Of a stretch of DNA of 48,078 bases, positions 26,488 to 30,159 are shown in pieces. A model generated the notes under the pieces. That model ran no database searches, was not told the DNA's origin, and saw only the letters and a program-made list of their open reading frames with translations. Origin of the DNA: Acidobacteriota bacterium (GTDB lineage: Bacteria > Acidobacteriota > Terriglobia > Terriglobales > Acidobacteriaceae); contig JAJZIJ010000020.1 of assembly GCA_021810625.1 (NCBI GenBank), forward strand, positions 1 through 48,078, in the 5' to 3' direction. Both the position numbers and the translations under genes were made by a program. Each line of letters begins with the position of its first letter. Position 1 is the stretch's first letter.

Positions 26488-27048
26488 ATGCCAGATTCTT
26501 CGATTTCCATCTCTTCCATCGCGTGTATCGGACTTGGCTCCAACCTGGGCGACCGCATGGCCCATTTGCAGGCAGCGGTACGCGCTCTGGGTCGTCTTGG
26601 CGAGATTCTGGCCGTCTCCAGCGTGTATGAGACTGCGCCCGTCGGCTTGGAGGAGCAACCTGCATTTCTCAACGCCGCCGTGCAGCTTTCGACGATGCTT
26701 GCGCCGGAGGCACTACTGCTCGAACTCCTGGCGATTGAGAGGAGCCAGGGCCGGGATCGCAGTCAGGCCGTTGATGCTCCCTTGTTGCGAGAGACGCTTC
26801 GGGGAGGGCCGCGAACCCTCGATCTCGACCTGCTTCTGTACGAGGATCGAATCCTGGCCACGCCGCAACTGATCCTGCCGCATCCGGCTCTGCATCAGCG
26901 TCGATTCGTTCTTGCTCCGCTGGCGGAGATTGCTCCCACCCTGCGCCATCCTGTTCTCGACCGCGCGCTCCAGCAATTGCTGGAGGCGCTCCCGGATGTG
27001 GGCGCAAACCGAATCGCCGCCGTCCATCGCGTCGGAGCGCTGGTATAG
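26488..27048 (+). CDS. folK: 2-amino-4-hydroxy-6-hydroxymethyldihydropteridine diphosphokinase
   Basis: A 186-residue HPPK of folate synthesis that transfers pyrophosphate from ATP to the pterin. It begins with the family block CIGLGSNLGDRMAHLQAAV, then has VSSVYETAPVGLEEQPAFLN, and the metal-binding RTLDLDLLLYEDRI and LPHPALHQRRFVLAPLAEI. The last 30 codons lie in an 81-bp sequence that recurs at 28769-28849, so this 3' end may be a replacement acquired with the DNA that follows. Residues after that repeat are only ALV. Confidence 0.95.
   Translation: MPDSSISISSIACIGLGSNLGDRMAHLQAAVRALGRLGEILAVSSVYETAPVGLEEQPAFLNAAVQLSTMLAPEALLLELLAIERSQGRDRSQAVDAPLLRETLRGGPRTLDLDLLLYEDRILATPQLILPHPALHQRRFVLAPLAEIAPTLRHPVLDRALQQLLEALPDVGANRIAAVHRVGALV
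26956..27036 (+). repeat. 81-bp direct repeat, copy A (3' end of folK)
   Basis: This segment matches 28769-28849 at 75 of 81 positions; the first 44 bases are identical and the six differences fall in the last 37. In copy A it codes LDRALQQLLEALPD and onward in frame with folK. Sequence similarity stops sharply on both sides. Confidence 0.93.
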
Positions 27049-27094: not shown

Positions 27095-27715
27095 TTAGCA
27101 TTCGCAATAGACTCCAAGAACATCGGCACGATCTGCCCAAGCTGTCTCCCGGTGTTCGCGAACAAGAGGTGCCCATGCTTCGGCGAGTTCCAGAAGACTA
27201 TTGCCTGATTTCCTGTAGGCTGCAACGCCCCGCCACCAGAGCGCTTCGGGAAGATTCCTGGCTGTCACATGTTCCCGGACACCGACATCCAAGAGATGAA
27301 ATGCAGCCTCCCACTCCCGCTTGTGGAGCGCATTGAGGCCCAGACCGAGCTGCAACTCCAGCAGCATGTCTTCTGGCGGAAGATAACCGGTGGTACGTCT
27401 CAGCTCAGCCCCATCTGCTGCCCGGATTATGAGAACCGGAGAGAAGATATACGCCGCCATCCCGTTCAGCCGTTCAAAATTATCGTCTGGCTGCCGGGCA
27501 TTGTAGAGAACAGGAATAAATTCTTCATTCAGAGTGGTTGCGACGCGCGGGTCTTGATAGGTTGTTGTTTCCAGCTTCTCGCAGCCCTTGCAGTGCAAGG
27601 CATAGAGGTCGATGAACAGTGGTTTTCCAGAGTTGCGCGACTCGGCGATTGCCGCGATTGCCTGGGACTGTTCATACCAGCGAACCAGAGAAGGGGCGTT
27701 CGTTTGTGTTGTCAT
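27095..27715 (-). CDS. Thioredoxin-fold protein with CxxC motif
   Basis: A 206-residue cytosolic protein (ATG 27715; ATG 27742 lies inside the operator repeat and is less likely). The N-terminal half is thioredoxin-like: KPLFIDLYALHCKGCEKLET with the CKGC pair at Cys42/Cys45, then EEFIPVLYNARQ and FSPVLIIRAADGAELRRTTG. The C-terminal third is helical and TPR-like (LGLNALHKREWEAAFHLLDV). It resembles thioredoxin_7/DUF255-type proteins. It is transcribed divergently from the LysR-type regulator and shares an inverted repeat with it, so it is the probable target of that regulator. The pair sits between duplicated folK ends. Confidence 0.78.
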   Translation of the reverse strand: MTTQTNAPSLVRWYEQSQAIAAIAESRNSGKPLFIDLYALHCKGCEKLETTTYQDPRVATTLNEEFIPVLYNARQPDDNFERLNGMAAYIFSPVLIIRAADGAELRRTTGYLPPEDMLLELQLGLGLNALHKREWEAAFHLLDVGVREHVTARNLPEALWWRGVAAYRKSGNSLLELAEAWAPLVREHRETAWADRADVLGVYCEC

Positions 27716-27738
27716 GGTTGAAGGATAGGCAAAACCAT

Positions 27739-27767
27739 ACATGAATAAAAGAGAATCTTATTCATGT
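27739..27767. promoter_or_regulatory. Perfect inverted repeat, probable LysR operator in divergent promoter
   Basis: ACATGAATAA and TTATTCATGT form a perfect 10-bp inverted repeat with a 9-base spacer, between the thioredoxin-fold gene and the LysR-type gene. The TGAA/TTCA cores are like those of MetR-type sites, though the spacing is wider than the classical TGAA-N5-TTCA. A second small dyad, ATGCA-N5-TGCAT (27773-27787), abuts the regulator start codon and could serve autoregulation. Confidence 0.7.
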
Positions 27768-27787
27768 TTTCCATGCATAATGTGCAT

Positions 27788-28711
27788 ATGAATCAATTCC
27801 AGCTTTCCAGGGAAGATTTTGAATTAGTGGTGGCCATCCAGCAGCAGGGCACGGTAACGCAAGCTGCGGAACACCTGCACCTCTCTCAGTCTGCATTGAG
27901 TCACCACCTGCGGGGACTTGAGGATCGGTTGGGCGAGCCGCTCTTTCAGCGATTTCCGCGCAAAATGGTGTTGACCCCGCTTGGAGAAGAGTTTCTCGCC
28001 ATCGGCAGGCAGATAACGCTGAGCTTTCGGGAGGCAGAGCAACGAATCGTTGCCTGTGCCAAGTCCGGCCCACGGATTCTGCGAATGGCGACGGAGTGCT
28101 ACACGAGCTACAACTGGCTGCCATCTCTGATCCGGGAACAAAACCAAAAGGAGAGCCGCGCGGAGGTACGAATTGTATTGGAAGCGACTGCTCGCGTGAG
28201 AGAAGCGCTCAACGAAGGAGAGCTAGACGTTGCGATTCTGAACTCCTCAATTGGAGATGATGGGTTGACGCTTTGGCCGCTGTTTCGTGACGAGATGGTT
28301 CTTGTAGTTTCGTCAGGTCATCCTTTTGCCAATATGCGCGAGATTAGCGCTGAATTGCTGGGCAACGAGACGCTGTTGTTGAACACCGCTCCTGGCTCGA
28401 ACAACACGGACATGAAGGAATTTTTTGCGCTTGCGAAGATTGAGCCGAAGTCGGTACAGTACATACCCTTTACAGACGCAATCATTCAAATGGTGGGTGC
28501 AGGTTTAGGCGTCGCGCCACTTGCGCGTTGGCTTATTGAGCCTTATCTGCATACAAATAATTTGAGTCTGCTGCGACTTGGACGCAGTGGCATCCACAGG
28601 AATTGGCGATTAGCCGCAAGAGAAGGTCATCCACGAGAAAAAGAATTTGCTTCCTTGGCAAAGGCGCTGCGTACCAGCCTCCGTCGGCAGATGCGTTGTG
28701 GCTTGACCTAG
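27788..28711 (+). CDS. LysR-type transcriptional regulator, MetR-like
   Basis: A 307-residue regulator (start ATG 27788; upstream ATGs in frame are less likely). The winged helix-turn-helix at the N-terminus reads GTVTQAAEHLHLSQSALSHH, close to MetR. The effector domain opens with LRMATECYTSYNWLPSLI and later has QMVGAGLGVAPLARWLIEPY, both typical of MetR, whose co-inducer is homocysteine. The adjacent ahcY makes homocysteine, so the effector could be the same, but this is inference. It probably acts on the shared divergent operator and the thioredoxin-fold gene. It is relatively AT-rich compared with folK and ahcY on either side. Confidence 0.88.
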   Translation: MNQFQLSREDFELVVAIQQQGTVTQAAEHLHLSQSALSHHLRGLEDRLGEPLFQRFPRKMVLTPLGEEFLAIGRQITLSFREAEQRIVACAKSGPRILRMATECYTSYNWLPSLIREQNQKESRAEVRIVLEATARVREALNEGELDVAILNSSIGDDGLTLWPLFRDEMVLVVSSGHPFANMREISAELLGNETLLLNTAPGSNNTDMKEFFALAKIEPKSVQYIPFTDAIIQMVGAGLGVAPLARWLIEPYLHTNNLSLLRLGRSGIHRNWRLAAREGHPREKEFASLAKALRTSLRRQMRCGLT

Positions 28712-28744: not shown

Positions 28745-28888
28745 ATGACCCAACGTTTGATCGAGAGGCTCGACCGCGCGCTCCAGCAATTGCTGGAGGC
28801 GCTCCCGGATGCAGGTGCAAATCGGATCGCCGCCGTCCGTCGCGTCGGATATTTACAGGGTTTCGAGCCGTTGAAATTTCACAGCTAG
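28745..28888 (+). pseudogene. Detached second copy of the folK 3' end
   Basis: A 47-codon frame from ATG 28745 to TAG 28886-28888. Its middle repeats the folK C-terminus (LDRALQQLLEALPD, ANRIAAV, RVG) and then continues for 14 more residues ending GFEPLKFHS. The eight codons before the repeat are unrelated to folK. This is most simply the original tail of folK, cut off when the intervening DNA entered; a transferred partial copy is the alternative. The stop overlaps the convergent ahcY stop. Confidence 0.75.
28769..28849 (+). repeat. 81-bp direct repeat, copy B (detached folK tail)
   Basis: Second copy of the sequence at 26956-27036, in direct orientation, 75 of 81 positions identical. Four of the six differences between the copies leave the encoded residue unchanged or conservative, as expected for two once-functional coding copies. 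Confidence 0.93.
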
Positions 28889-30159
28889 GTTCCTTCTGAC
28901 CAACTGGCCAGATACTCTTCCTGGTCTGGAGTCAATCGGTCGATCTTGACGCCCATCGACTCCAGCTTCAAGCGGGCAACGCGGCGATCCAGTTCCTGCG
29001 GCACGGAGTAGACCTTCTTTTCCAGCGATGCGTGGTGCTGCATCAGATACTCGGCAGCCAGGGCCTGATTGGCAAAGCTCATATCCATCACCGAGGCCGG
29101 ATGCCCTTCGGCGGCGGCAAGATTGATGAGGCGGCCTTCGCCGAGGATATAGATTTTGCGCCCATCTTTCATGGCGAACTCCTCCACCAAATCGCGGGTC
29201 TGGCGCTTGGAGGAGGCCAGCCGTTCCAGCGCCGGAATGTCGATCTCCACATTAAAATGGCCGGAGTTGGCGACGAGCGCGCCGTTCTTCATCAACTCAA
29301 AATGCTCCTGGCGAATCACGCTTTTGTTGCCGGTCACGGTGACAAAAATGTCGCCGATGCGGGCGGCTTCGCTCATGCTCATCACGCGGTAGCCATCCAT
29401 CACGGCTTCAATGGCGCGGGTGGGGTCAACCTCGGTCACAATGACATCGGCACCCATGCCACGAGCGCGCAGCGCCAGTCCGCGACCGCACCAGCCATAT
29501 CCGGCAACCACAAATTTTGATCCGGCCAGCAGCACGTTGGTGCAGCGGATGACACCATCCAGCGTGGACTGTCCGGTGCCGTAGCGATTGTCGAACATGT
29601 GCTTGGTCAGCGCATCGTTGACGGCCACCACGGGATAGCGCAGGATGCCCTGCTTGGCCATTGCGTGCAGGCGCACCACGCCAGTGGTGGTCTCCTCGGT
29701 TCCGGCAATCACGTTGTCCAGAACGTCTTTGCGCTTGGTGTGCAACACTGTGACCAGATCGCAACCATCATCCATCGTCATGTGCGGTTTGTGATCCAGC
29801 GCGGCCTGAATGTGGGAGTAATAGCTGGCCTCGTCCTCGCCCTTGATGGCGAAGGTGGAGATGCCGAAGTCGCGGGTGAGCGCGGCGGCCACGTCATCCT
29901 GCGTGGAGAGCGGATTGGAGGCGCACAGCGCGATCTCCGCGCCACCATCGCGCAGCGTAATCATCAGATTGGCCGTTTCCGTGGTGACATGCAGGCAGGC
30001 GGCAACGCGGATGCCCTTGAGCGGCTGATTCTTGATGAATTCCTTGCGGATGGTTTGCAGCACCGGCATGGATTGGTTGGCCCATTCAATGCGGCGACGG
30101 CCCTGATCGGCCAGTTCAAGGCTCTTCACAGCAGAAGGTACGGTCGTTGTCGAAGCCAT
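28885..30159 (-). CDS. ahcY: Adenosylhomocysteinase
   Basis: A 424-residue NAD-dependent enzyme that splits S-adenosylhomocysteine into adenosine and homocysteine, closing the methyl cycle. Blocks seen are [19 protein letters not shown], the metal/substrate region [28 protein letters not shown], the NAD fold [20 protein letters not shown] and [15 protein letters not shown]. It is the shorter form of about 420 residues common in bacteria and archaea. AGGA precedes the ATG. It sits tail to tail with the detached folK end. I saw no SAH riboswitch in the 63-bp leader. Confidence 0.96.

Follow-up and report, generated by a model that had tools for sequence, protein, structure and literature searches.

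A perfect inverted repeat between a thioredoxin-like gene and a LysR-type regulator gene in an Acidobacteriota genome is probably part of an ordinary divergon operator

What is a perfect 10-bp inverted repeat doing between two divergent genes, one for a LysR-type regulator and the other for a thioredoxin-like CxxC protein, with ahcY as a neighbor? The repeat lies in a stretch of 48,078 nucleotides of Acidobacteriota DNA, which was analysed at its full length and is called the window here. An earlier note, made from the letters of the window, had suggested that the repeat may be a variant MetR site and that the regulator may sense homocysteine, the product of AhcY, or a thiol-stress signal. The divergent gap is 72 bp long with a G+C content of 33%. 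It separates the leftward thioredoxin-like (Trx-like) gene (27095-27715, minus strand, ATG at 27715) from the rightward LysR-type gene (27788-28711, plus strand, ATG at 27788). Both dyads that the note had described are present at their places in the sequence. The first is composed of the left arm ACATGAATAA (27739-27748), a spacer of 9 nt and the right arm TTATTCATGT (27758-27767), both read on the plus strand; the left arm contains the half-site ATGAA and the right arm the half-site TTCAT. The second, ATGCATAATGTGCAT (27773-27787), has the arms ATGCA and TGCAT around the spacer TAATG and abuts the ATG of the regulator gene. It is a perfect 5+5 dyad with the T-n11-A pattern and is a candidate distal LysR box (IR1). 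The regulator gene has further in-frame starts at 27773 and 27764; with translation from 27773, the conserved distal box would fall inside the coding sequence.

The first dyad is the sole perfect inverted repeat of at least 10 bp with a spacer of 0-20 nt in the 48-kb window. Because between 0 and 5 such repeats arose in each of eight dinucleotide-shuffled windows (mean 2.1), the mere existence of a 10-bp dyad in the window is unremarkable. Its falling inside the 72-bp gap is remarkable; a dyad of at least 10 bp was obtained in 17 of 5000 shuffles of the gap. The second dyad by itself is not rare in AT-rich DNA, and a perfect 5+5 T-n11-A repeat was present in 1040 of 20000 simulated Markov 72-mers. 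A terminator hairpin was also considered as the explanation of the dyad and was rejected because the terminator scan was empty, the repeat is rich in A+T and the starts on its two sides are divergent. The promoter and terminator scan found nothing, where 0.3 and 0.1 hits were expected, and the consensus scan gave no sigma-70 site.

Only one orthologous Trx-LysR pair was available for comparison. It is found in the genome G060, where the regulator is 76% and the Trx-like protein 71% identical to those of the window and the two genes are divergent in the same way. The G060 gap aligns without indels and is identical at 57 of 72 bases, whereas the fourfold-degenerate sites of the two genes are identical at 74 of 194 (38%; 46/116 in the LysR gene and 28/78 in the Trx gene; Fisher p about 1.5e-9 for the gap against these sites). 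The gap is better conserved than the fourfold sites and is therefore under selection. The conservation of the first dyad is divided: the left arm is kept at 10/10 and the spacer at 8/9 positions, but the right arm is kept at only 7/10, its half-site being TGCAT in G060. The second dyad is identical at 14 of 15 positions, the single change falls in the 5-nt spacer, and the perfect 5+5 T-n11-A repeat is retained. With up to 3 mismatches allowed, the genome of the window (G000) and G060 each have a single copy of the first dyad, in this gap, and the sister genome G299 has none; a reversed control pattern gave no match in any of the three. The exact pattern ATGCAN5TGCAT occurs three times in G000 and four times in G060 (reversed control, 0 and 1, respectively). 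The divergon copy is the sole one in either genome outside a long open frame, and the remaining copies (2/3 and 3/4) are all inside open frames of 346-772 codons. The exact sites in G000 and G060 thus give no sign of a wider regulon.

These data bear on the possibility that the palindromes arose by chance in an AT-rich promoter, and that the gap is conserved for promoter elements only or, in 27773-27787, as coding sequence. The readiness with which whole-window shuffles yield such dyads, the frequency of the T-n11-A repeat in simulated 72-mers and the non-conserved right arm of the first dyad would agree with this. However, such a dyad is scarce among the gap shuffles, and between the orthologs the left arm has been retained, as has the T-n11-A box, though fourfold sites have drifted to 38% identity. 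We consider an origin by chance unlikely.

It is probable, in our judgment, that the first dyad belongs to the operator of a LysR-type divergon of the ordinary, autoregulated kind, formed by a gene pair that was itself probably transferred. The sections of PMC5002191 on LysR divergons describe a strong distal box that lies near -65 relative to the start of the target and overlaps the regulator promoter, with a weaker box some 22 bp closer to the target; the positions given there are -63/-41 for metE, -65/-43 for gcvB and -65/-43/-34 for ilvC. As in a LysR divergon, the regulator gene of the window has a divergent neighbor and a shared gap holding a T-n11-A box. Measured from the Trx ATG, the center of the distal box (27780) is at 65 bp and the center of a candidate proximal box (IR2; GAGAA-n5-TTCAT, 27751-27765, center 27758) at 43 bp; to read these distances as -65 and -43 is to assume a Trx transcript that begins at this ATG. 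The ATG at 27715 was chosen as the start since, in the alignment, the G060 ortholog shows an in-frame stop upstream of it. A possible Trx -10 box, TATCCT (27722-27727, minus strand; TAGGCT in G060), would set the transcript start at or next to 27715. The distal box overlaps a -10-like hexamer, CATAAT (27776-27781), which would place the start of the LysR transcript at about its ATG.

The proximal candidate is imperfect and weak. Counted by eye, it has 3/5 pairs in the window and 2/5 in G060; it lacks T-n11-A, and differs from TGAA-n5-TTCA by one mismatch in the window and by two in G060. It is not among the boxes listed by a 15-bp repeat scan of the gap, in which other imperfect boxes score equal or better. 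A box centered at 27767 has three pairs with T-n11-A in the window and four in G060, where it is one mismatch from TGAA-n5-TTCA; this box does not fit the published spacing. A third box centered at 27748, as in OccR, is not claimed, its right half being mismatched by eye. On the layout with boxes at 65 and 43 bp, the first dyad would hold ATGAA and TTCAT as half-sites separated by two helical turns. In the divergon that we favor, the 15-bp T-n11-A box (27773-27787) would most likely be occupied by a regulator dimer that covers the -10 region of the regulator gene and represses that gene. A second dimer may occupy the weaker half-sites in the region of the first dyad (27741-27765) and, with an inducer, would activate the leftward Trx-like gene. 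Control of the divergent CxxC gene through the shared gap, which the earlier note had also proposed, is plausible.

How the pair came to its present place bears on the suggested homocysteine signal. The gene ahcY (28885-30159, minus strand; adenosylhomocysteinase, TIGR00936 at 660 bits against a cut-off of 497.6) is indeed a neighbor, but it is convergent with the regulator gene, starts about 1.1 kb from the dyads and lies outside the divergon. The Trx-LysR pair is flanked by an 81-bp direct repeat of the 3' end of folK, with the upstream copy at 26956-27036 and the downstream copy at 28769-28849 (both plus strand; 75/81 identical). In the sister genome G299, whose AhcY is 99% identical, folK is followed by ahcY, and between them there is one such folK-end stretch and neither a Trx nor a LysR homolog; G299 is the only other genome of the genus compared and is about 90% complete. 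It has no LysR ortholog, the best match being 27% identical. Between folK and the ahcY side G299 also has about 110 bp (locus L042) unmatched in the window, possibly a small repeat element. In a survey of 60 genomes for ahcY, 42 had a match and 30 loci were taken with 1.5-kb flanks. The flanks of the 29 loci other than that of the window contain no Trx or LysR homolog, and folK is near ahcY in two of them (G299 and G300). The neighbors of the pair in G060, named by eye, are a tgt-like gene and a large glycosidase-like gene; the surrounding 13 kb contain neither an ahcY nor a folK homolog, and an AhcY-like gene (47% identical, divergent in sequence) is on another contig.

These arrangements suggest that the Trx-LysR pair is probably an inserted or acquired cassette at the 3' end of folK, and both genes probably came together as a small transferred unit. 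The G+C content of the pair region is 0.531 while that of ahcY, folK and lpxC is 0.598-0.626; since 0.531 is not far from the window mean of 0.570, composition supports transfer only weakly. Alternatively, recombination between the repeats may have removed the pair from G299, which is less likely because the pair is so rare in the family. If the pair arrived as a transferred cassette, as is likely, the proximity of ahcY says nothing on the inducer. The homocysteine signal that the earlier note had read from ahcY is thus not supported, in view of the pair-less folK-ahcY site of G299, the ahcY loci elsewhere and the place of the pair in G060.

The rarity of the pair is seen in three genome samples, which overlap each other. 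The LysR protein has matches at E 1e-40 or better in 11 of 298 order-sample genomes including its own (G060 at 76% identity, the others at 36-40%), at 1e-70 in 2 of 398 family-sample genomes (its own and G060), and in 3 of 396 phylum-sample genomes (its own, G473 and G478). No Trx homolog is present in about 3.8 kb around the LysR relatives of G473 and G478. Likewise, no Trx, ahcY or folK homolog was found by tblastn (E 1e-3) in the 10.8-14 kb around each of the nine order-sample relatives outside G060. As the relatives outside G060 are without a Trx homolog, they offer no further operator to compare. Several LysR relatives (L032-L040, about 34-40% identical) adjoin, by eye, genes for a small exported-type protein and an AMP-binding or acyltransferase-like protein, which is a different recurrent gene context. 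In a wider contig collection the LysR protein has one relative, 27% identical, in Lachnoclostridium. In a plasmid collection 12 records matched, all below 60% identity, with 31.3-32.3% in the 10 listed.

The regulator is a member of the LysR family, with HTH_1 (PF00126, 3.2e-19) and LysR_substrate (PF03466, 4.8e-38) both above cut-off. The name MetR-like is apt in so far as, among the five E. coli LysR regulators compared, MetR comes closest, at 28.5% identity against 21.2-23.2% for the others. The plain name MetR is not apt: the MetR model NF011950 is the best NCBIfam match, but the protein scores 113.6 bits where the cut-off is 382. In a 22-protein tree the regulator groups with the G060 and G473 proteins (100/100). 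Together with the other relatives it falls on the MetR side of a 100/99 branch, a join that is uncertain, as E. coli MetR is a long branch for which the program warns of false joins.

A redox-sensing regulator of the OxyR kind would also suit this pair: thiol stress would oxidise the regulator, which would then turn on the CxxC Trx-like protein. The target has a thioredoxin-like domain and matches DsbD domains among PDB sequences. Two PDB sequences match the regulator at 1e-20 or better, a LysR-family regulator and a solved OxyR, and C104 is retained in both regulator orthologs. C104 is, however, the sole cysteine common to the two, so a disulfide of the OxyR type is unlikely; moreover, the identity to E. 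coli OxyR is 23.2%, and OxyR falls on the other side of the tree. We regard OxyR-like sensing as improbable.

The Trx-like protein has a CKGC motif and a C-terminal extension. It is above cut-off for the Pfam models Thioredoxin_7 (1e-9), Thioredox_DsbH (7.5e-9) and Thioredoxin_2 (3.5e-6), and narrowly passes PF13098 (27.8 against 27 bits). Besides G060, 14 order-sample genomes (L017-L030) hold relatives of it at E 1e-15 or better, which are 27-35% identical in the rows shown, with one at 26%. Each relative has an in-frame TGA (L025 has two), and in all 11 relatives that were aligned a TGA stands at the first cysteine of CxxC, C42. SelA was found above cut-off in all 14 genomes with a TGA-type relative and was not found in the two CxxC genomes, G000 and G060. 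The window protein has cysteine at this first active-site position, where a UxxC selenoprotein has its in-frame TGA. The alignment suggests that it is probably the cysteine form of a selenoprotein family, in whose other members TGA likely encodes selenocysteine. Such a family is probably not new in kind, since two reviews (PMC13188914 and PMC9312934) already list several UxxC thioredoxin-like families; Table 1 of PMC13188914 includes a 'Thiol:disulfide interchange protein' with PF13098 and UxxC. The string 'acidobacteri' is absent from the main texts of these reviews. One may imagine a transferable thiol/selenium cassette, in which a LysR protein of the MetR branch drives the cysteine form of an otherwise selenocysteine-dependent Trx in SelA-less genomes and responds to a redox or a selenium/sulfur signal by way of half-sites that extend over two helical turns. 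We hold this to be quite unlikely.

The weakest explanation, and in our view a very unlikely one, is that a MetR variant senses AhcY-made homocysteine, binds the 10-bp dyad with its 9-bp spacer and couples the methyl cycle to thiol repair: MetR is the top model and the nearest E. coli protein, and TGAA-n5-TTCA sites with one mismatch exist in the window (center 27758) and in G060 (center 27767), but the model score is far under its cut-off, the one-mismatch sites are at different places in the two gaps, neither gap has an exact site, the perfect box ATGCA-n5-TGCAT is two mismatches from the MetR core, and the ahcY neighborhood is not conserved. That the 9-bp spacer marks a variant MetR site is not supported either, as the 10-bp dyad decays in its right arm in G060 whereas the T-n11-A box is perfect in both genomes.

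A striking palindrome beside a suggestive enzyme can mislead, and the sister genome indicates that the position of ahcY is an accident of insertion. What remains under the autoregulated divergon that we prefer is an uncharacterised LysR/Trx-like pair whose common promoter region is conserved. This regulatory unit is small and could readily be tested, and its presumed target is the cysteine form of what is probably a selenoprotein family. Like the UxxC thioredoxin-like selenoproteins in the table of PMC13188914, the window protein has a thioredoxin-like domain and passes PF13098; unlike them, the window and G060 proteins are CxxC, and their genomes are those in which SelA was not found. Compared with the metR-metE system of E. 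coli and Salmonella, as described in the relevant sections of PMC5002191, the window regulator is likewise divergent from its presumed target, has a distal box at a similar distance and is on the MetR side of the tree. It differs in its low identity to MetR and its failure to approach the MetR cut-off, in a box core of TGCA-n5-TGCA instead of TGAA-n5-TTCA, and in a target that is not a met gene. In the ilvY-ilvC system, the same source gives boxes of TTGCA-n5-TGCAA at -65, -43 and -34. The window is without clear second and third boxes, and its regulator, with 21.2% identity to IlvY, lies across the tree from that protein; what the window shares with ilvY-ilvC is the TGCA half-sites in a 5-n5-5 box and a distal box at an equal distance.
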